The notes under the pieces were generated by a model that worked only from the letters and a program-made list of their open reading frames with translations, ran no database searches and had not been told where the DNA came from. Below are positions 5,946-61,747 of a stretch of 64,000 bases of DNA, in pieces (within the stretch, counting starts at the first letter, position 1; each line of letters starts with the position of its first letter). The translations under genes were made by a program, and so were the position numbers. Source of the stretch: Phytoactinopolyspora mesophila (GTDB lineage: Bacteria; Actinomycetota; Actinomycetes; Jiangellales; Jiangellaceae); NCBI RefSeq assembly GCF_010122465.1, contig NZ_WLZY01000003.1, forward strand, positions 372,001-436,000. The letters run 5' to 3'.

Positions 5946-7636
5946 CACGTCTCCCCGCTCGACCGTTCCGGGTCGAGTCTGCGTTGCACTCCATCGGTGA
6001 TCGCATTGACCTCGTCTTCAAGGTTTCCGCCATCAGAGCGGTGCAATCCCGCGACTTCGACTACGGTACGCCCCTCTGATCCGGGCACCGCACGCACCCA
6101 GACCCGGCGGCGCCGGATGTACAGCGACACGGACAGCCCGGCCACCGCCAGCAATGCGCCGATGAGTGCGATCTCTTTCCCGGAGTTCCGGCTGACCTGC
6201 AAGTTGACCCACGTGACGTATCCGTCGAAGGTGATGAAGCCAGCCTCATCAGGAAGCTCGACCGTCTCGCCCACACCAAGCCCCGCCCGGAACGGCTCGT
6301 CATCCACTTCGAACTGCTCGAGTCCGTCCTGGTTCAACCGGTAGATCGATTGTGGAGTGCCGTCGTTGAGGCCGAGGTCGCCGTAGTAGGCGGTCAGGTA
6401 GAGCTCCGGGAGCCGCGGCTCGGGAAAGATCGAGCGCATACCCAGCTCATCGATGTAGGCCGTGGGCAAGAAGATTCCTTCGATGCCGATGTCTGGCCCG
6501 GTGTCGGCGGCCACCGGCACCTTGACCACGCCGGTTGAGGTGAAGTTGTCGTCTTGCGGAAGGAACGGCACCGGCCCCTCGGCCAGGATGTCGCCGTCGG
6601 CCGAGCGGACAGTGATGGCCGGCGCGTATCCGGGGTTGAGGATGTGCACGAGTGTGCCGTCCACGTTCAGCGGTTCATTCACCCGGATGGTGCGCGGTTC
6701 CGGCTCGGCACCAGGTTCGGGCACGAAACTGACTGTCGCCTCGTAATTGTCCGGCAGGCCGAGGTGCGGACCGGAGTCGATGAATTCCATCGCGAACTGC
6801 TCAACTTCAAGAGAGAACGGCGGGAGATCACTCGGTTCGAACATGGGCCCGGAGGAGAGGTTGTCGTATTGGACCACCGAGTTGGCGAAGCCCGTACCCT
6901 CCGGCACCAAAACCGTGCCCCGGTATCCGAACAAGCCACCCAGCGCCACAGCGAGCAGAACCACCACAAGCGACAGGTGAAACACCAGATTCCCGGTCTC
7001 ACGAAGGTGACCCGCCTCACCGTCGACCGAGTCGGAGCCGTCGCGTCGCGACACGCGGAACCGGCGGCCACGTAGCTCCGCGCGTGCTGCCTCCAGAACC
7101 TCCTCCGGGTCGTGCTCGACGACGATGCTGCGGTGCACGGGCATTCGGGAGAGCCGGCGCGGCGCCCGGGGCGGACGCGCCCGCATGGCCTTCCAATGCT
7201 GCCAAGAGCGGGGCAAGATGCAACCGACCAGCGAGATCAGCAGCGCCAGGTAGATCGCCGCGAACCACGGCGCGGCGAAGACGTCGAACATGCTGAGCCG
7301 GTCGAGCCACTCGGACAGTTCCGGATGGCGTGCGCGGAAATCACGGACCTGCAGGGGGTCGACCCCGGTCTGCGGGATGATCGAGCCTGGTATCGCGGCG
7401 ATGGCCAGCAAGAACAGCAGGATCAGCGCGACCCGCATCGAGGTGAACTGACGCCAGGCCCATCGAGCGAACTCGACGGTATTGAGGGCGGGCGGGCGGC
7501 TACGCGGCTCACGGACCGGCTCGGACCCACCGGGGCTCGCCCCCCACGGCTGCTGATCGTGCGGATAACTCCCGCGCTGCCGTTCGGCGTCCGGTTCAGG
7601 GCCGCCAGGAGCAGCGATATCGCTGCGCTCGGTCAT
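5945..7636 (-). CDS. resB: Cytochrome c biogenesis protein ResB (Ccs1)
   Basis: Partner of CcsB in the system II cytochrome c synthase (563 residues). It has a disordered N-terminus, then the ResB pattern: a membrane helix with VALILLFLLAIAAIPGSIIPQ, a second helix before residue 150, a third near 215-240 (LVFHLSLVVVLLAVALGGLFGYRG), a large extracytoplasmic domain, and a last helix near residue 500 followed by a basic tail. The start at 7636 is an ATG overlapping the ccdA stop in an ATGA arrangement. A frame continuing upstream is only the antisense of ccdA and was discarded. Confidence 0.93.
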   Translation of the reverse strand: MTERSDIAAPGGPEPDAERQRGSYPHDQQPWGASPGGSEPVREPRSRPPALNTVEFARWAWRQFTSMRVALILLFLLAIAAIPGSIIPQTGVDPLQVRDFRARHPELSEWLDRLSMFDVFAAPWFAAIYLALLISLVGCILPRSWQHWKAMRARPPRAPRRLSRMPVHRSIVVEHDPEEVLEAARAELRGRRFRVSRRDGSDSVDGEAGHLRETGNLVFHLSLVVVLLAVALGGLFGYRGTVLVPEGTGFANSVVQYDNLSSGPMFEPSDLPPFSLEVEQFAMEFIDSGPHLGLPDNYEATVSFVPEPGAEPEPRTIRVNEPLNVDGTLVHILNPGYAPAITVRSADGDILAEGPVPFLPQDDNFTSTGVVKVPVAADTGPDIGIEGIFLPTAYIDELGMRSIFPEPRLPELYLTAYYGDLGLNDGTPQSIYRLNQDGLEQFEVDDEPFRAGLGVGETVELPDEAGFITFDGYVTWVNLQVSRNSGKEIALIGALLAVAGLSVSLYIRRRRVWVRAVPGSEGRTVVEVAGLHRSDGGNLEDEVNAITDGVQRRLDPERSSGET

Positions 7637-16976: not shown

Positions 16977-18538
16977 CAGTCGCTCCCTTCCTCGTCGGTG
17001 ACACTGACGAACCGATCGGCACGCCGCGACGGCAGATACGCCAGCGCGATACCGACCACCAGAACACCCACAGCCACCCCCCACCCGGCTACGAGCAGGA
17101 AACCGACGGGATAGTCCTCATATGGTGCCTCGAACTCCGTGCGCAGGCTGTCCACCATCATCCACCCGAGCACAACCGGCGTCACAACACCCAGAGTCAA
17201 CAGCCACCACCAGCCCAGACGCAGCGCCGAGGTCTCGTTCGCGTGCGCCTGCAATGTGGGAAGCCGGCGCAGCACCCACGCTACGACGACAACGGAGACC
17301 AGCGCAGCCATAGCGATGCCGTAGTGGTTGACGAAGTGGTCGGCCGCGTCGAGGATGAACAGTCCTTCCGGGGTGGGGAACAGCACGAGCGACGCCAGTG
17401 CGATAGCACCGCCGACCACCAGCACCGTCGGGACCCGCGACCACCCGGTACGGTCCTGTACAGCCGAGACGACCACCTGGACGATGCTGATCAGTGACGA
17501 GAGCCCGGCGATGACCAAGGCGCCGAAGAAGAGGATTCCGAACAGCCCGCTACCGGCCGGCATGCTGGAGATGATCGTCGGGAAAGCGATGAACGCCAGG
17601 CCGATCCCGCCTTCGTCGAGTACCTCACCGACGCCCACACCGGCGTTCGCCGCCATGAACCCGATGGCGGCGAACACACCGATGCCCGCAAGAATCTCGA
17701 ACGAGCTGTTCGCGAATCCGGCCACCATGGCCGAACCGGTCAGGTCAGCGCGCCGGCGTAGGTACGACGCATAGGTGATCATGATGCCGAACCCGACGGA
17801 GAGCGAGAAGAAGATCTGGCCGTAGACGGCGACCCACACGCTCCCGTCCGTAATGGCGCTCCAGTCCGGGGAGAAGAAGGCGTCCAGCCCATCGGCCGCG
17901 CCGTCCAGCGTCAGCGACTGGACCACCAGGATGGCGAAGACCACCACGAGCAGCGGTATGAAGATCTTGTTCGCCCGCTCGATGCCGCGTCGCACCCCGA
18001 GCGCCAACACTCCCAGCGTGATCACCCACACCGCCACGAGAGGCCACGCCACTCCGGCGACGTACGACGAGATCATGCCCGGCTGGTCCGCACGTTGCAG
18101 GAAATCGCTGATGAGGAAGGATTCTGGATCCGTACCCCAGTCCTGGCCGACCGAGAACCCGGTGTAGCGCATGGCCCAGGCGATGATCACCGCGTAATAG
18201 GTGGCGATCACCAGACAGATGGCTACCTGCCACCACCCGATCGTCTCAGCTCGCCGGGACAGTGACCGATAGGCCAGCGGCGGCGAGCGACGGGCTCTGC
18301 GGCCGATCGTGTACTCCATGATCAGTAGCGGGATGCCGGCCGTCAACAGGGCGATCAGGTATGGCAGCAGGAACGCGCCCCCGCCGCTCTCGTAGGCGAC
18401 GTACGGAAACCGCCAGATGTTGCCCAGCCCGATGGCCGAGCCGACAGCTGCCAAGATGAACCCGGCTCGGGTTCCCCATTGCTCACGTTCCCGGGACAAC
18501 GCAGCCTCCGTCAGCCGACTGATGCCTTCCGAGGGCAC
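16976..18538 (-). CDS. metP: Sodium-dependent NSS-family transporter MetP
   Basis: A 520-residue neurotransmitter:sodium-symporter-family protein with about twelve helices. The first helix carries the sodium and substrate signature AAVGSAIGLGNIWRFPY (about residues 30-46) with the unwound Gly-containing centre, as in LeuT. Linkage to the small subunit points to the bacterial methionine/alanine importer MetPS. The start is uncertain: the longest frame begins with a GTG at 18538 lacking an obvious ribosome binding site, while a TTG at 18499 has GGAGG five bases upstream and begins just before the conserved EQWGTRAGFIL segment. Confidence 0.88.
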   Translation of the reverse strand: MPSEGISRLTEAALSREREQWGTRAGFILAAVGSAIGLGNIWRFPYVAYESGGGAFLLPYLIALLTAGIPLLIMEYTIGRRARRSPPLAYRSLSRRAETIGWWQVAICLVIATYYAVIIAWAMRYTGFSVGQDWGTDPESFLISDFLQRADQPGMISSYVAGVAWPLVAVWVITLGVLALGVRRGIERANKIFIPLLVVVFAILVVQSLTLDGAADGLDAFFSPDWSAITDGSVWVAVYGQIFFSLSVGFGIMITYASYLRRRADLTGSAMVAGFANSSFEILAGIGVFAAIGFMAANAGVGVGEVLDEGGIGLAFIAFPTIISSMPAGSGLFGILFFGALVIAGLSSLISIVQVVVSAVQDRTGWSRVPTVLVVGGAIALASLVLFPTPEGLFILDAADHFVNHYGIAMAALVSVVVVAWVLRRLPTLQAHANETSALRLGWWWLLTLGVVTPVVLGWMMVDSLRTEFEAPYEDYPVGFLLVAGWGVAVGVLVVGIALAYLPSRRADRFVSVTDEEGSD

Positions 18539-18595
18539 GGTAACCCGTTGTCGCTCACCACACCACCGCGATCGCCGGATCCCGCCGCCCCGCCC

Positions 18596-18682
18596 CTAGA
18601 TGATCATGTTTGGTGGGTTTTCTCTTGCGTCGACAGGCCTGCAGGCATGATGAGGCACAGGAAGTGCTTGTGATGTATCAGC
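18596..18682 (+). repeat. Palindromic dispersed element, copy 1 (right arm decayed)
   Basis: The left arm is intact (CTAGATGATCATGTTTGGTG, then the GGGTTTTCTC stretch), followed by a centre with CCTGCAGG. The right arm is recognisable only as scattered matches (GCAC, GGAA, TATCA). It lies between the metP start region and the hemB stop. Other copies: 25856, 39191, 47750, 49784 and 60969. Confidence 0.75.
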
Positions 18683-18694
18683 GAGTGACGGAAG

Positions 18695-19675
18695 TCAGCG
18701 CTGGTGAAGCCACTGGGCGGCTTCGACAGCCCAGTACGTCAAGATGATGTCCGCGCCGGCCCGCCGGATGGACGTCAGCGATTCGAGGACGGCGCGGTCC
18801 CGTTCGATCCAGCCGTTGGCCGCCGCTGCTTCGATCATCGCGAACTCACCGGACACCTGATAGGCGGCGACCGGCACATCGGCGATCTCCCGGGCCTTGG
18901 CCACCACGTCCAGATAAGACATCGCCGGCTTGACGATCACCATGTCGGCGCCTTCGTCGACGTCGAGGCGGACCTCTCGCATGGCCTCGATGATGTTCGC
19001 CGGGTCTTGCTGGTAGGTGCGGCGATCACCGATCAGCGACGATTCGACCGCATCCCGGAACGGGCCGTAGAACGCCGACGCGTATTTCGCGGCGTAGGCA
19101 ATGATCGCGACATCGGTGTAGCCCGCGCTGTCGAGCGCTGCACGCACCGCCCCCACCTGGCCGTCCATCATGCCGCTGGGGCCGACGACGTCAACGCCGG
19201 CTTCGGCCTGCGCCAGGGCCATCTGCTCGTAGGCGCGCAGCGTGGCGTCATTATCGACCACGCCGTCCGGCGTCAGCAGCCCGCAATGACCGTGGTCGGT
19301 GAACTCGTCGAGGCAGAGGTCAGCCATCACGACGGTGGCGTCTCCGACCTCACTCACCACCTCGTGGATGGTCGCGTTCAGCGCCCCATGGGGGTCGTGT
19401 GCGCCACTTCCCTGTGCGTCCTTGTGCTCCGGTATGGCGAACAGCATCAGGCCGCCGACGCCGGCCTCGACAGCCTCGACGGCGGCCTTGCGGACGGTCT
19501 CGGCGGTGTGCTGGACCACGCCGGGCATCGAGGGCACCGGCCGTGGCTCGGCAGCGCCTTCGCGAATGAACATGGGCAACACCAGATGCCGCGGCTCGAT
19601 GGACGTCTCGCCCACCAGCCGGCGCATGGCAGGCGTCCGGCGCAGTCGCCTCGGGCGCTCGTTCGGATACGGCAT
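18695..19675 (-). CDS. hemB: Porphobilinogen synthase (5-aminolevulinate dehydratase) HemB
   Basis: A 326-residue TIM-barrel enzyme condensing two 5-aminolevulinate molecules to porphobilinogen. The Schiff-base lysine is in VIVKPAMSYLDVV and the second active-site lysine in AYAAKYASAFYGPFRDA. The metal-site segment VMADLCLDEFTDHGHCG has two Cys and an Asp; the reduced cysteine pattern suggests partial or Mg-type use, not tested here. The ATG at 19675 was chosen over one at 19690 because GGGAGA lies seven bases upstream of it. It follows hemD by 72 bases on the same strand. Confidence 0.94.
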   Translation of the reverse strand: MPYPNERPRRLRRTPAMRRLVGETSIEPRHLVLPMFIREGAAEPRPVPSMPGVVQHTAETVRKAAVEAVEAGVGGLMLFAIPEHKDAQGSGAHDPHGALNATIHEVVSEVGDATVVMADLCLDEFTDHGHCGLLTPDGVVDNDATLRAYEQMALAQAEAGVDVVGPSGMMDGQVGAVRAALDSAGYTDVAIIAYAAKYASAFYGPFRDAVESSLIGDRRTYQQDPANIIEAMREVRLDVDEGADMVIVKPAMSYLDVVAKAREIADVPVAAYQVSGEFAMIEAAAANGWIERDRAVLESLTSIRRAGADIILTYWAVEAAQWLHQR

Positions 19676-25000: not shown

Positions 25001-25846
25001 ATGCGCCTTCGCCGGGATCAGTACCGAAGTGTCGGCCGTGCGGCGGCCGAGACCGCGGAGGCGATAGCCGGCATCGAGCTACCGTCCGACTCCCGCGCGG
25101 CGGCGTTCTTCGACCTGGACAACACCCTGCTCCACGGTGCGTCGCTCTTCTATCTGGCGCGTGGCTTGCATGAGCGCGACTTCTTCCGGACGAGCGACAT
25201 TCTCCGCTTCGGGTACCAGCAAATCCGTTTCGCCGCCGGCGCCGAACATGCCGTGCATATGAGCGAAGCCCGGAACACCGCGTTGTCGTTCATCGCCGGG
25301 AGGTCGGTCGCCGAGCTCTCCCGGATCGGCGAGGAGATCTTCGAGGAGCGCATGGCCAGCAAGATCTGGCCAGGCACCCAGGCGATCGCGCACCTGCACA
25401 TGGACCAGGGCCAACGCGTGTGGCTGGTGACCGCGGCGCCCGCCGAGATCGCTGCGATCATCGCCAAGCGCCTGGGCCTGACCGGCGCGTTAGGCACCGT
25501 GGCCGAGCACACCAACGGCGAGTACACCGGCCGGCTCGTCGGCGACCTGCTACATGGCGACGCCAAAGCGGCCGCGGTAGAGGCGCTGGCCGCGCGCGAG
25601 GGTCTCGACCTGAGCCTCTGCTCCGCATACAGCGACTCGGCGAATGACATCCCCATGCTGTCGCTCGTGGGCCACCCGTGTGCGGTCAACCCGGATCGCA
25701 AACTGCGTAAACATGCCAAGCAGCACGGCTGGCGAATCCGCGATTACCGGGGCCGCCGGCGTAACACCACCCTCGGCGTGGCAGCGGGCAGTGGAGCGGT
25801 GGCCGGCACGGCGGCCGGCATACTGATCGCCCGCCACCGCCGCTGA
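25001..25846 (+). CDS. HAD-IB family hydrolase (SerB-like)
   Basis: A 281-residue haloacid dehalogenase phosphatase. The nucleophile motif is FFDLDNTLLHG (Asp38, Asp40), motif II is WLVTAAPAEI, the motif III lysine is in GDAKAAAVEALA, and motif IV is YSDSANDIPML. The cap lies between motifs I and II, as in subfamily IB phosphoserine-phosphatase relatives. A hydrophobic Gly/Ala-rich segment at the end (VAAGSGAVAGTAAGILIA) may anchor it in the membrane. The start at 25001 lies eight bases after a TACTCT hexamer, suggesting a leaderless mRNA. The substrate is not determinable. Confidence 0.88.
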   Translation: MRLRRDQYRSVGRAAAETAEAIAGIELPSDSRAAAFFDLDNTLLHGASLFYLARGLHERDFFRTSDILRFGYQQIRFAAGAEHAVHMSEARNTALSFIAGRSVAELSRIGEEIFEERMASKIWPGTQAIAHLHMDQGQRVWLVTAAPAEIAAIIAKRLGLTGALGTVAEHTNGEYTGRLVGDLLHGDAKAAAVEALAAREGLDLSLCSAYSDSANDIPMLSLVGHPCAVNPDRKLRKHAKQHGWRIRDYRGRRRNTTLGVAAGSGAVAGTAAGILIARHRR

Positions 25847-25855
25847 CCGCTCTCC

Positions 25856-25945
25856 CTAAATGATCATGTTTGGTGGGTTCTCTCGTGCCTCACCATGCCT
25901 GCAGGCATGGTGAGGCACGAGGAGACCTACCGAACGTGTTCGTAC
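25856..25945 (+). repeat. Palindromic dispersed element, copy 2 (perfect inner hairpin)
   Basis: Begins CTAAATGATCATGTTTGGTG ten bases after the HAD stop. Its centre, 25883-25920, is a perfect 38-base palindrome built around CTGCAG. The right arm has drifted (GACCTACCGAACGTGTTCGT instead of AACCCACCAAACATGATCAT) but still pairs partly with the left. It may serve as a terminator for the HAD gene. Confidence 0.8.
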
Positions 25946-26043
25946 GGGGCTCTGATGAGCGCGTGGGTGGGTGGGTTCGTGAATGGATTATTGGACTGGT
26001 TCATGCGGGGCTGACGCGTCGGGCACAGGGGTTGGCAGTTTCT

Positions 26044-26377
26044 GGCACGACGATCTTCACGCCCCGCCCCCCCATACTGCCCCCTGGGTGGGCACCCGTC
26101 GTGGTTCACACGACGATCTTCACGACCACTGCCCCACACCTGGCGGCATGGCCGTGGTGTTGGTGCCACCGGTTGTGAAGATCACCGGGTGACGCCACGC
26201 GGGCGCATCGGCGTTCGCGCGCGGGTCGTGAAGATCGTCGTGTGAACATGGACCGCCCGCCGGGCCAGTACGGGCGTCGTGAAGATCGTCGTGCCAAGAA
26301 ACGCCGCTGGAGGCCGTCAGGAGTCACACGAGCGGGCACACACCGGTCGTGAAGATCGTCGTGTGAACCACGACGGG
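26044..26377. repeat. Cluster of six GTGAAGATCGTCGTG units with crossed inverted repeats
   Basis: Within the 697-base gap 25847-26543 there are two units on the minus strand (26044-26061, 26095-26127) and four on the plus strand (diverged 26172-26190, then 26225-26247, 26275-26295, 26345-26377). Units 26095-26127 and 26345-26377 are perfect 33-base inverted copies; 26044-26061 pairs with 26278-26295, so the arms cross rather than nest. Spacing is 50-70 bases. The gap otherwise holds copy 2 of the palindromic element, no gene I can support, and GC-rich sequence with no recognisable RNA. Confidence 0.8.
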
Positions 26378-26543
26378 CCGCCACCAGCTTCGGGCAGCCG
26401 AGCACGTCCGGCACTCACACCACCCCACGCCCAACAGGGGCCAGGACGCGGACACGTCACTGCACCCCACCGACCCACGGACACACAACGCGGCAATGCG
26501 CGACCACCCACGGAACAGTCAGAAACGCCCCATTTAGGAGGGC

Positions 26544-38165: not shown

Positions 38166-39125
38166 TTACTCCGTCGCCTGACCGGCGTCGAACTCCACAC
38201 CATCTAGCTGGTCGAGCCGGCGCAGAATAAGACCTTCCCGCAACGCCCACGGACAGATCTCCACCGAAGGGACGCCGAACAGATCTATCGCGGCATCCGC
38301 CACAATCGCACCGGCAAGCAGTTGCTCAGCACGACTCTTCGCCACGCCGGGCAGCTTTGCCCGCTCCGCTGCCGACATCGCGGCGAGTTGCTCCAGCAAC
38401 TCCTGGATGTCGCCACCCTTCAGTGTCCGGCGCACGTAGGGACCCTCGGCCGACGGCGCGGCCCCCGCAACCCGCGCAAGCGAACGGAACGTCTTGCTCG
38501 AGGCCACCGCCTGATCGGGCACGCCGAAACGGCTCACCTTGCCCACGACCTCAGCGATCTCGGCCCGAACGTGCCGGCGCAACGCCCGGATTTCGTCCTC
38601 GGACGGCGGATCCGAGGAGAACCAATCCCGGGTGAGCCGGGCCGCACCCAACGGCAACGAGATCGCGACATCCGGGTCCTCGTCGATTCCGGCCGAGATC
38701 TCCAGTGAGCCCCCGCCGATGTCGAAGCACAGCAGCCGCCCGCTCGACCACCCGTACCAACGCCGTACGGCCAGGAACGTCAGCCGAGCCTCGTCCTCGC
38801 CGGAGAGCACCCGGAGATCTATTCCAGCTTCTCGCCGGACGCGCTCGAGCACCGCTGCGCCATTACGGGAGTCGCGCAGGGCCGACGTGGCGAACGCCAG
38901 CATTGACGTCGCCCCCTTGTCCTCGGCGATCTGGACGGCTTTGACACAGCATTCGACCAGCTGATCGGCGCCGCGCCCCTTCACCTTGCCATTGCCGTCG
39001 AGCATCTCGGCGAGGCGCAGCTCGGTCTTCTCCTTGTACGCAGGAAGCGGCTTCGCACCGGGGTGCGCGTCCACGAGAAGCAGGTGAACGGTGTTCGATC
39101 CCACGTCCAGGACTCCGATGCGCAT
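38166..39125 (-). CDS. Ppx/GppA-family exopolyphosphatase
   Basis: A 319-residue ASKHA-fold phosphatase of the short actinobacterial Ppx type, which hydrolyses polyphosphate or (p)ppGpp-related substrates. Phosphate-1 motif [15 protein letters not shown] at residues 5-19, adenosine/phosphate-2 motif [12 protein letters not shown] near 137, and the linker [13 protein letters not shown] are clear. Only the two N-terminal domains are present. It follows the alkaline phosphatase on the same strand in genomic order but is upstream in transcription, with its own region. Specificity between Ppx1 and Ppx2 types is not decidable. Confidence 0.88.
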
Positions 39126-39190
39126 AGCCCCAGGCTACCGGCATCCGACCTCGACCGATGCACGAAGCTCATCCGACCTACGCACACCGC

Positions 39191-39282
39191 CTAGATGATC
39201 ATGTTTGGTGGGCTTTCTCGTGCGTCACCATGCCTACAGTCCTGTCGGAGCACGAGGAAACCCACCAAACATGATCATCTAG
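39191..39282. repeat. Palindromic dispersed element, copy 3 (complete reference copy)
   Basis: Both 33-base arms (39191-39223 and 39250-39282) are present and match at 31 of 33 positions as inverted copies. Each ends in CTAGATGATCATG or its complement; the core shared by all copies is TGATCATGTTTGGTGGG. The 26-base loop contains GTCACCATGCC. It lies between the divergent ppx and Cys-rich protein genes, so it is not simply a terminator. Confidence 0.9.
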
Positions 39283-39338
39283 GTGGCGCGAGAGCGCCTC
39301 ACCTGGCAGTGCCATGCGGCGGCGTCTACGCTCGGGGC

Positions 39339-40112
39339 GTGGGCACAACGCGGGACCAACTGCCGGTCGATGTGGCGCGATCCTGGGTCGAATTCCCCGA
39401 TCCAGACAATCCGAATCAAATCCTGCGCTGCGACCTGACCTGGCTGACCTCCCGCTGGACGTGCATCTTCGGACAAGGTTGCCCCGGCATCTATGCGTCT
39501 CGCCCCGACGACGGCTGCTGCACTCACGGCGCGCATTTCTCCGACGAGGACGACGAGAAACGCGTGAGCGAGTTCGCCGCCCACCTCAGCCCAGAGGTCT
39601 GGCAGATGCACGCCGAAGGCACCCAAGGCGGCGTTGTCGAGACCGACGAAGAAGGCGAGCGAAAGACGCGGGTCGTGGACGGAGCCTGTGTGTTCCACAA
39701 CCGGCCAGGCTTTTCCGGCGGCGCGGGCTGCGCGTTGCACTCGTACGCACTGCGCGAAGGTCTCCACCCGCTTCAGACGAAACCGGACGTGTGCTGGCAG
39801 CTCCCGATTCGCCGGGCGTACCGCGACGTGACTCGCGCAGACGGCAGCACCTACCTCGAGCTCACCATCACCGAGTACCGAGCCCGCGACTGGGGCGCCG
39901 GCGGCCACGACATGGACTGGTACTGCACCAACACCCCCGAGGCACATGTCGGCCCCGAACCCGTTTACCGGTCGAACCAGGCCGAGCTACGTGAACTCGT
40001 CGGCGATGCCGCCTACGAGGAACTAGTTCGCCACTGCGAGGCATTCATCGCGGCCCGGCTTCCACTGGTGACCCACCCTGCCACCGCGGCAGCGCCCACC
40101 AACCGGCGCTAG
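39339..40112 (+). CDS. Cysteine-rich conserved protein, possible metal or Fe-S binder
   Basis: A 257-residue protein with clustered cysteines: [53 protein letters not shown] and DWYCTN. The pattern resembles the DUF3109/YkgJ-like group of putative metal or Fe-S proteins, which is a guess by motif only. The segment [19 protein letters not shown] and following KPDVCWQLP is typical of that group. The GTG at 39339 is preceded by TACGCT at six bases, suggesting a leaderless mRNA. In-frame sequence further upstream runs into the palindromic element. Confidence 0.75.
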
Positions 40113-47749: not shown

Positions 47750-47822
47750 ACCTTCTCATGCTGCCACGAAGGAAGCAGGCATAGTAGGCACGAGAAGAGC
47801 GTGGCGAACATGATCATTGAGG
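47750..47822 (+). repeat. Palindromic dispersed element, degenerate copy 6
   Basis: GCACGAGAAG then GCGAACATGATCATTGAGG aligns with the right arm of the reference copy (GCACGAGAAA, CAAACATGATCATTTAGG); the left side keeps only CCTTCTC. It abuts the pepE start region, ending 18 bases before the GTG. Confidence 0.55.
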
Positions 47823-49363: not shown

Positions 49364-49774
49364 ATGTTGGAGCTCAGCTCGGAGGCCAGCCGCCTGATCG
49401 GCATTCTGCTGCTTGCGCTGGTCACAGTTGAGTCCGGCGGCTGGTATCTCACCCGCCTGATCCGTGGACAGATGCCCGCGACGGACTTCCAGCGCGCGTT
49501 TGCCCGGGCTGGACATGGCCATGCCGGCATGTTTCTGGTTCTCGGCATCTTGGCTGCGGTGCTCACCGATGCCACTAACCTTGAGGGAGCCGCCGCATGG
49601 ATCGCGCGAAGCGGCGTGGCCATCGCCGCCATCCTCATGCCGGCCGGCTTCTTCTTTTCGTCGATGGGTGCCGGGCGCACTAAACCCAACGGCCTCATGG
49701 TGCTCGTGTGGGCCGGCGCACTCATGCTTGCCGCGGGCCTGATCACCCTGGCCGTCGGGCTACTCACGGTATAG
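49364..49774 (+). CDS. Four-helix membrane protein, probable target of adjacent TetR regulator
   Basis: A 136-residue protein with four hydrophobic helices (about residues 10-28, 52-70, 80-100, 110-133) and a His-containing ARAGHGHAGMFLVLG segment at the second helix. No known function. The AGGATGCC just before the ATG and close proximity to the TetR palindrome suggest direct repression by the divergent regulator. Confidence 0.8.
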   Translation: MLELSSEASRLIGILLLALVTVESGGWYLTRLIRGQMPATDFQRAFARAGHGHAGMFLVLGILAAVLTDATNLEGAAAWIARSGVAIAAILMPAGFFFSSMGAGRTKPNGLMVLVWAGALMLAAGLITLAVGLLTV

Positions 49775-49783
49775 CCGGAGCCA

Positions 49784-49864
49784 GCATCACCAGGACTTCT
49801 CGCGCGTCACGATGTCTGCAGACTTGTTGACGGACGAGAAAACCCACCAAACATGATCATTTAG
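49784..49864 (-). repeat. Palindromic dispersed element, copy 4 (left arm partial)
   Basis: The right arm is intact (GAAAACCCACCAAACATGAT then CATTTAG); the centre contains TCTGCAGA; the left arm is degenerate beyond CTTCTCGCGCGTCAC. It lies between two convergent genes and could terminate either. Confidence 0.8.
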
Positions 49865-49877
49865 GCGGGGTAGGAGG

Positions 49878-58692: not shown

Positions 58693-58780
58693 GGTGATCG
58701 TGAGCGGATTTCTGCCGCGATTCGGGTGATCGTCAGCGGATCTCGGTGCACATAGCAGCAAGAATCCGCTCACGATCACC
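58693..58780. terminator. Inverted repeat between DUF6506 and acs genes
   Basis: GGTGATCGTGAGCGGATT (58693-58710) has a perfect 18-base inverted partner (58763-58780) 52 bases away. A third, direct, one-off copy (GGTGATCGTCAGCGGAT) lies between at 58725. It sits between convergent genes and probably ends both, but the triplicated unit also suggests a small repeat family. Confidence 0.6.
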
Positions 58781-60761: not shown

Positions 60762-60968
60762 CTTTGTCTGCTCCTCACATCTCGTACTCGTCTGGACCCC
60801 GCGGTCTAGCTCACCATGCGCTCACGTGGACAGCAAGACCCGTCTCTCACCTTCGGCCCGCGGTCCGCGAGGGGGCAGACGAAACCTGTTTGTCATCCGA
60901 TCGTCTCAGGTCCACCTAGTGAGACGAGACCGGCCTCTCGCGTGGGGCGGCCCAGGGGGCGGCGTGAC

Positions 60969-61001
60969 GCAAGGGGAAACCCACCAAACATGATCATTTA
61001 G
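60969..61001 (-). repeat. Palindromic dispersed element, copy 5 (one arm)
   Basis: GGGGAAACCCACCAAACATG then ATCATTTAG is one intact arm; the other side has only scattered similarity (CCTCTCGCGTG). The stop codon of the adjacent methyltransferase gene lies in its outer end (CTAAATGATC). The 236-base gap to acs holds no gene. Confidence 0.75.
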
Positions 61002-61747
61002 GTGCGGTAGGTCCGGAAGCAGTACGTGATGTAGGGCAGCACGATCCCGGCGGCGAGTGCCTCGCGATCATAGATGTCCCGCACCGCATCCAGGAGCGGT
61101 GCGCGTTCCTCGGGTGACTGAACAGCAACGTAGGAGCGGGAAGTCACGAGTTCGACCAACCGCTGCTGGTCCAGATGCTGAGTGTGCTCGAAAGTGACGT
61201 GTTCGACGGAACCGAACAGCGAGCTGTCACCCAGCGGCGAACGCCCCTCGACGTCCGTGAGTTCGATGCGCCTGGGCTCATCCGGATTGATCATGGTCCA
61301 GAGCTCGTCCACCCACGGCACCGACGCGTCGCGAAGGTTCCAGATCAACGCCAGGCGGCCGCCAGGCCGCAGCACCCGCGCGATCTCCGGAACCGCGACC
61401 TCGTGGTCGAACCAGTGGAACGCCTGCGCCACGACCACGACATCCACGCTCGCGTCGGCCACTGGAATCGCCTCCGCGCTGCCGACATGTGCCTCTGCCT
61501 GTGGCATCGCCATCGCCAAGTGCTCCAGCATCGGCTCCGAAGGGTCCACGGCGACAACGTCGTGACCGGCGTCGATCAGGGAAGACGTCAGCTTTCCGGT
61601 TCCGGCACCGAGGTCGAGCACCCTCGCCGGAGCATCACCTGTCATCCACCGCACCGCGGCGTCCGGATAGTCCGGCCTGGAACGCTCGTAGACATCTGCG
61701 ACCGAACTGAACGAGGCCGCCAGTTCACGGTGCCGATCACTTCGCAT
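60998..61747 (-). CDS. Class I SAM-dependent methyltransferase
   Basis: A 249-residue methyltransferase. Motif I VLDLGAGTGKLTSSL near residue 43, acidic loop VVAVDPSEPMLEHLAMAMP, motif with QAFHWFDHEVAVPEIARVL and RPGGRLALIWNLRD are typical of the UbiE/Methyltransf_11 group with an extra C-terminal helical part. The substrate is unknown. The TAA stop falls inside the palindromic element, so the last few residues (CFRTYRT) were probably shaped by its insertion or by sharing the sequence. Confidence 0.87.
   Translation of the reverse strand: MRSDRHRELAASFSSVADVYERSRPDYPDAAVRWMTGDAPARVLDLGAGTGKLTSSLIDAGHDVVAVDPSEPMLEHLAMAMPQAEAHVGSAEAIPVADASVDVVVVAQAFHWFDHEVAVPEIARVLRPGGRLALIWNLRDASVPWVDELWTMINPDEPRRIELTDVEGRSPLGDSSLFGSVEHVTFEHTQHLDQQRLVELVTSRSYVAVQSPEERAPLLDAVRDIYDREALAAGIVLPYITYCFRTYRT

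Follow-up and report, generated by a model that had tools for sequence, protein, structure and literature searches.

The window, a 64-kb stretch of contig C3 of the host genome (C3:372001-436000; host genome G000, 27 contigs, 6.51 Mb), comes from a member of the family Jiangellaceae that GTDB places in Phytoactinopolyspora, together with Phytoactinopolyspora halotolerans. Between a Ppx/GppA-family gene (38166-39125, minus strand) and a divergent gene (39309-40112, plus strand) it contains a 92-bp palindrome at 39191-39282 (profile match 39189-39285), the reference full copy of the element, which can be written as A-B-A'. Its left A arm, CTAGATGATCATGTTTGGTGGG (39191-39212, plus strand), carries the tag TGATCATG at 39196-39203, the right A' arm (39261-39282, minus strand) carries CATGATCA at 39270-39277, and the arms enclose a 48-nt inner hairpin B (39213-39260), which is variable, largely paired and has an asymmetric centre, CACCATG...CCTGT. 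The two 33-nt arms match at 31 positions around 26 nt, exactly as first noted; extended outwards they reach 37 nt with 92% matching. The predicted RNA fold has an energy of -68.6 kcal/mol on the plus strand (z -11.6) and -66.1 kcal/mol on the minus strand (z -12.1), and z-scores ranged from -11 to -14 in five folds.

The sequence-only reading listed six copies in the window, and all six places were matched by a profile built from half copies, four of the window copies being among its building set. Five of the six copies carry exact matches to the core TGATCATGTTTGGTGGG, six in all, where 0.10 occurrences with up to three mismatches were expected in the window and the largest number in 100 shuffles was two. 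A half copy composed of A, B and a C-like arm is at about 18593-18681 (plus strand), between tandem minus-strand genes (start of an SNF symporter gene, end of an ALAD gene). The full copy at 25855-25946 (plus strand; profile match 25855-25935) has a degenerate right arm and begins 9 bp past a HAD-family gene ending at 25846. On the minus strand are a degenerate partial copy, B'-A' (47751-47822; a weak profile match, E 0.004), before or overlapping the start of an S51 peptidase gene; a half copy, C'-B'-A' (49776-49866), after a gene ending at 49774; and a half copy with diverged inner half (60920-61003; E 4e-13), whose outer end holds the stop codon of a methyltransferase-family gene on the same strand. 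The statement that all copies lie between genes held insofar as all are in gene gaps, but the gene at 60998-61621 ends inside its own copy, and the caller starts the gene at 47810 inside the degenerate 47751-47822 copy. Genes were called by a simple codon-usage script trained on the window, thus single gene distances may be wrong. Rfam (release 15) gave no match in the window at gathering score, and 20 fetched loci gave only a tRNA.

Other repeats are found nearby. A hairpin of another GATC-ended family, GGTGATCGTGAGCGGAT..., at 58693-58780, is a possible relative; this family (GGTGATCGTGAGCGGATT...AATCCGCTCACGATCACC) has more copies on contig C3, along with a similar family, GGTGATCGTCAGTGGGTTGTGG. 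On the same contig GATC is present in both outer 18 nt of 32 of 50 intergenic long hairpins, which belong to several families. At about 479-576 of the window, at C3 172314, 230726, 250632 and 491090 in the host and on contigs of G001, G002 and G004 there are hairpins with paired arms that vary between copies and a loop in which CGGGCATCGGCGAGG (frequently together with AACGAGCCGC) or a near form is retained; this looks like an element in its own right, repeated or structured. Non-coding stretches close to hairpin copies are filled by TCGTGAAGATCGTCGTGTGAACCACG units, clustered and in inverted orientation (window 26034-26385; L150, about 6850-7250). A hairpin family ACTTCGATACCGCCAGGTGG...CCACCTGGCGGTATCGAAGT is present at C3 97029, 106633 and 479626, with a similar one in G003 (L145). 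Finally, GGCTCTTGTGACCTTTCCGTGGGTGAGTT or its variants adjoin copies in the host (L028, L089) and in G004 (L108), as another repeat at the element edge, and the same repeat is found in L150 near 6783, after a gene without an adjoining copy.

The relatives compared were four congeners (G001, G002, G003 and G004) and a member of the sister genus (G005), all draft assemblies; the copies studied are samples. G001 contains a letter-identical 8.8 kb stretch of the P. halotolerans record, and G005 likewise matches P. halophila. The whole-genome search suggested in the sequence-only reading gave 123 core matches with at most two mismatches in the host, against one in the reversed control. Tag-bounded places of the form TGATCATG N55-80 CATGATCA numbered 46 in the 6.5 Mb of the host, the reference copy included, 76 in G001, 58 in G004, 27 in G005, nine in G002 and none in G003, and the reversed control had no match in any of the 23 genomes searched; some of these places belong to other families (e.g. 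one in G002 and one in G004). G003 does have tagged hairpins: a 15 kb stretch contains three perfect hairpins, 58-64 nt in length, of which two carry the TGATCATG tag and one TGATCATT, and the shorter pattern TGATCATG N20-50 CATGATCA has 114 places there and 100 in the host.

The shorter pattern matches 71 of 296 genomes of the class Actinomycetes. At least five places were found in 35 of the 296 (17 Jiangellaceae, 18 outside the family) and at least ten in 26, the reversed control giving at most one place per genome. When one such place was examined in each of 30 genomes, 19 were at least 70% paired, and 17 of these were intergenic by prediction, with tandem genes around 10, convergent genes around six and divergent genes around one, while two were inside predicted genes; the other 11 (three inside predicted genes) were set aside as chance or decayed matches. 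Tagged hairpins with unrelated arms recur across many genera of the class. The description of a REP- or MITE-like element of this lineage stands as far as a dispersed palindrome of that kind is concerned, but the type is not private to the lineage. Plasmid and phage records searched with the element gave no match, and no description of TGATCATG-tagged elements was found in the titles and abstract openings of the open PMC papers searched.

Sequence variation was studied in 43 distinct 92-bp copies from the host (46 places by pattern), exactly spaced and with at most three mismatches in the core, 36 of 76 from G001, 20 of 27 from G005 and 9 of 58 from G004; the G001 and G005 copies were mostly fetched as best matches to one copy. 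In the host copies the A-arm letters (columns 5-22 and 71-88) depart from consensus at 1.0%, compared with 13.5% in B, the core-based choice favouring intact arms. Both ends, TGATCATG and CATGATCA, are present in 43 of 43 copies save one base in one copy, the copies having been chosen by the tag-containing core. In 29 of 43 copies, compared with 13.7 expected, the two ends carry identical outer five nucleotides; no copy combines CTAGA with CTAAA. The centre is asymmetric: columns 38/55 and 41/52 are conserved non-pairs, where CACCATG faces CCTGT. Co-change supports pairing at a small number of column pairs, clearly at 4/89 (40 of 43, with 21.7 expected) and 31/62 (28, with 19.9 expected); at other pairs it is lacking or negative, e.g. 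at 34/59 (14, with 18.6 expected). A further 28 entries are halves whose A' has given way to other sequence, frequently an arm similar to GAAGTCCTGGTGATG; the window's degenerate copy (25861) is one of these. A stretch of a hairpin in G020 (L064) is similar to the C arm, and the half copies may be chimaeras.

Near-identical copies (95-99%) at scattered places made up 80 of 595 pairs in G001 and 35 of 190 in G005, both numbers inflated by best-match fetching, and two of 36 in G004. None of the 903 pairs among the 43 host copies exceeded 95% identity (maximum 94.6%), which argues against a recent burst in the host. The arms are largely, not strictly, genome-specific, since G001 and G002 share arm types.

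The search for empty sites proposed in the sequence-only reading was successful at conserved gene gaps. At the reference site G001, G002 and G004 have kept the gene pair, with gaps of 129, 139 and 56 bp and no copy; in G005 its members lie apart. A convergent pair at C3:340650 is conserved in four genomes (G001, G002, G004, G005) and the 92-bp element is in none of them, the gap in G002 holding a different TGATCATG hairpin. The gap of the 18593 copy, between the SNF symporter and ALAD genes (window 18538-18695), is 7.5, 0.6 and 9.9 kb long in G001, G002 and G004, with no copy detected; this gap is an insertion-prone place, which holds a half copy in the host.

Other positions are shared. The gap after the HAD gene (25855) has a copy also in G004 and none in G001, G002 and G003; G005 has one in the matching interval, the HAD gene being missing from the contig, and the G004 and G005 copies have other arms. 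Downstream of the acyltransferase gene adjoining 25855 a hairpin was found in 63 of 80 loci, mostly from Streptomyces, against one of 80 after shuffling, thus a hairpin is common at that position; one of the 63, that of P. halophila, is the tagged hairpin. At the inositol-phosphatase locus half copies are present on both sides in the host; on one side G001 has a full copy and G002 an arm-to-arm remnant of about 40 nt, and on the opposite side a full copy is present in G004 and a further tagged hairpin in G005. In two gaps the tagged family differs from one species to the next. Among 23 copies of other species in the fetched loci, three of eight from G005 and none of 15 from congeners (one ambiguous) were clearly in an interval with a host copy. 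With all tagged families on five contigs counted, two of 17 element-bearing conserved pairs shared positions (Fisher p 0.06). It had been proposed that fixed positions in distant genera, with no empty sites, would indicate a fixed regulatory structure; this was not the pattern observed, but positions are partly shared, as the three sister-genus copies show. The shared sites (the HAD gap, the G005 copies and the inositol-phosphatase side) fit old positions at which the arms changed in place.

The earlier conclusion that the elements are not plain terminators, drawn from their occurrence after genes, before genes and between divergent genes, rested on six copies and needs correction in view of a larger sample. 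Of 108 copies from four genomes (43, 36, 20 and 9), 50 were in convergent, 49 in tandem and six in divergent gaps and three in unresolved ones, i.e. convergent or tandem gaps, the location typical of REPs, hold 99 of the 105 resolved copies. The background on contig C3, for gaps longer than 20 bp, was 51 convergent, 205 tandem and 58 divergent. Among the tandem copies 40 of 49 were closer to the 3' end of the upstream gene (p 9e-6), and at 42 of 149 adjoining 3' ends the stop codon fell inside the outer 9 nt of the element; in G005 a stop inside the element was always the TGA of the tag (11 of 27). With divergent placement so rare and most copies hugging 3' ends, a terminator-like role is again a possibility. 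The hairpin expected of an intrinsic terminator is there, with ends of the TTTAG or TCTAG type; no U-tract follows it in the copies inspected. U-tract terminators are scarce in high-GC bacteria. The wobble bias of tandem copies on the transcribed strand was 39:22 in the host (p 0.04), 23:14 in G001, even in G005 (8:8) and reversed in G004 (2:7), altogether 72:51 (p 0.07), against 47:53 for convergent copies; as evidence for selection at the RNA level this is suggestive in the host alone and not significant over the four genomes. Placement and predicted folding make a putative role in terminating or shielding mRNA plausible, the wobble bias being the one sequence test of it.

Six inverted pairs of half copies, A arms outward, enclose 0.06-1.5 kb of other DNA (L069-L073, L088), whereas in two further neighbouring pairs both copies point in one direction (L150; window 47751 and 49776). 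Between the SpoIIM and DUF58 genes two half copies flank a 1.6 kb unit with TetR and SfLAP genes, which is missing in G001, where SpoIIM and DUF58 are 8 bp apart; this paired unit is a true insertion relative to G001. The two genes are about 100 bp apart in G002 (by alignment ends), about 0.8 kb apart in G004, with a full copy beside DUF58, 4.9 kb apart in G005 and on different contigs in G003. We considered whether half-copy pairs are mobile gene-cassette ends in general. The inositol phosphatase gene, which also lies between half copies, keeps its place in the gene order of G001, G002, G004 and G005 and has the same upstream neighbour in G003, thus the pairs are not always cassettes; the comparison with relatives covered these two of the six pairs. 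A parent transposon was not found among the paired copies either: Pfam detected no transposase among the five genes enclosed by four of the six pairs (SfLAP, TetR, AbiEi_4, inositol phosphatase and one without family).

The Y1/RAYT transposase family (PF01797) had no match in 22 genomes, the host among them and 14 of them Jiangellaceae, in a search whose control matched five of 14 known genomes. The remark that no RAYT gene is in the window was correct, and by PF01797 there is none in the genome either; a RAYT/IS200 origin is unsupported for the host genome. No mobilising enzyme was found, Y1_Tnp being the family searched. No target-site duplication was recognised by eye in the flanks, the species being too diverged to place the junction.

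Presence and absence at conserved gaps, the largely genome-specific consensus and the near-identical scattered copies in G001 and G005 together point to copying. In our opinion the element is probably a REPIN-like non-autonomous palindrome, copied into gene ends by a trans-acting enzyme other than a Y1 transposase; its mobility we infer from these comparisons. Such an enzyme would recognise the tag and the arms, probably on folded single-stranded DNA. Copies at gene ends would be tolerated because the tag supplies a stop codon from either side and the transcript gains a long hairpin, which could end or protect it. Variation of the inner part would be tolerated too, and the arms might be kept either because copying is restricted to intact ones or because they serve the host.

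A different explanation is that these are 3'-end structures of the host, kept by selection as bidirectional terminators or as hairpins protecting mRNA. Their arms would then co-evolve with a binding factor particular to each genome, and their apparent dispersal would reflect terminator turnover. The convergent and 3'-end bias, the strong folding scores, the partly shared positions with different arms, the two gaps occupied by different tagged families and the frequent hairpin downstream of the acyltransferase gene are all consistent with this explanation. It does not readily account for clear empty sites with the gene pair intact, for the position of the reference copy between divergent genes or for the missing U-tract in the inspected copies; moreover, termination needs no sequence likeness among dozens of copies, and the wobble-pair test was not significant over four genomes. 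On balance we think this explanation unlikely, while deserving serious consideration. MITEs are short and non-coding, with inverted repeats at their ends, and show empty sites, and our element resembles them in these respects; the six outward-facing half-copy pairs and the absence of the SpoIIM/DUF58 unit from G001 would also be compatible with a MITE proper, i.e. an ordinary DDE insertion sequence shortened by deletion, which would have the A arms as its ends and be moved by the transposase of the parent. The differences are that neither a parent insertion sequence, the five enclosed genes having been scanned, nor a target duplication was found, that the inositol phosphatase gene is in place in relatives without both copies, and that tagged hairpins with unrelated arms extend over many genera, which together make this origin improbable. 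Still less can be said for a classical GTAG- or CGTC-type REP or REPIN mobilised by a RAYT: the placement rule, stop-codon donation and abundance of hairpin families are the same, but the tag is different and occurs at both ends, and the PF01797 search was negative, so that we regard it as very improbable.

Beyond the REPIN-like copying that we favour, one might speculate that the TGATCATG palindromes are an actinobacterial super-family, the third among REP-like elements, which an enzyme other than Y1 spreads or a host factor co-evolving with them maintains, and that they would act as portable gene endings (a stop codon from either side, a hairpin to end or protect the transcript) with arms rewritten in concert per genome at shared sites; we put this forward tentatively, as a doubtful extension. 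REP-like elements are best known with RAYT enzymes and mostly outside Actinomycetes. Here a widespread actinobacterial set has the placement and stop-codon habits of REPs, with no Y1 enzyme found. This makes it testable whether REP-like behaviour needs a RAYT, whether other enzymes copy hairpins, and whether hairpins set 3' ends in high-GC bacteria.

It is useful to compare the elements with known systems. TRIT, the tuberculosis Rho-independent terminator, was reportedly described by Gardner and co-workers in 2011 as a repeated actinobacterial hairpin motif for annotating 3' ends; our element is likewise a repeated actinobacterial hairpin, the likeness being one of description. TRIT is named in the accessible text of PMC3526491. 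REPINs, as portrayed in the accessible parts of two papers (Bertels and Rainey 2011, PMC3116915; PMC8049555), have conserved inverted ends and a variable middle. The present elements share with them the inverted conserved ends around a variable spacer forming a hairpin, the occurrence of single halves and a population in each genome; they differ in that no RAYT replicating the ends was found, that the ends are outside the REP groups known from these texts, and that the spacer is itself a hairpin with a conserved centre. REPs, according to the accessible text of Di Nocera et al. (2013, PMC3733652), are 20-40 bp long, are defined by the tags of the GTAG and CGTC super-families, lie in convergent or unidirectional gaps, often less than 20 bp from 3' ends, and can supply stop codons with their ends; CGTC-class REPs are also without a known transposase. 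In contrast to the unpaired tag at one end of those REPs, the TGATCATG tag is paired and at both ends, and the length is 92 bp here and about 36-66 bp elsewhere by the pattern used. The present elements are in Actinomycetes, whereas the words actinobac, mycobacter, streptomyces and frankia do not occur in the accessible text of PMC3733652. A RAYT (Y1) in the genome or close relatives, a further mark of the described REPs, was not detected by PF01797. With a different tag and no Y1/RAYT found, the elements are REP-like in behaviour and outside the described tag classes. The likeness consists in many intergenic palindrome families sharing a short tag, the same placement and the same donation of stop codons (PMC3733652, accessible text), and our reading is that these REP-like palindromes form one more tag class, one without a RAYT.
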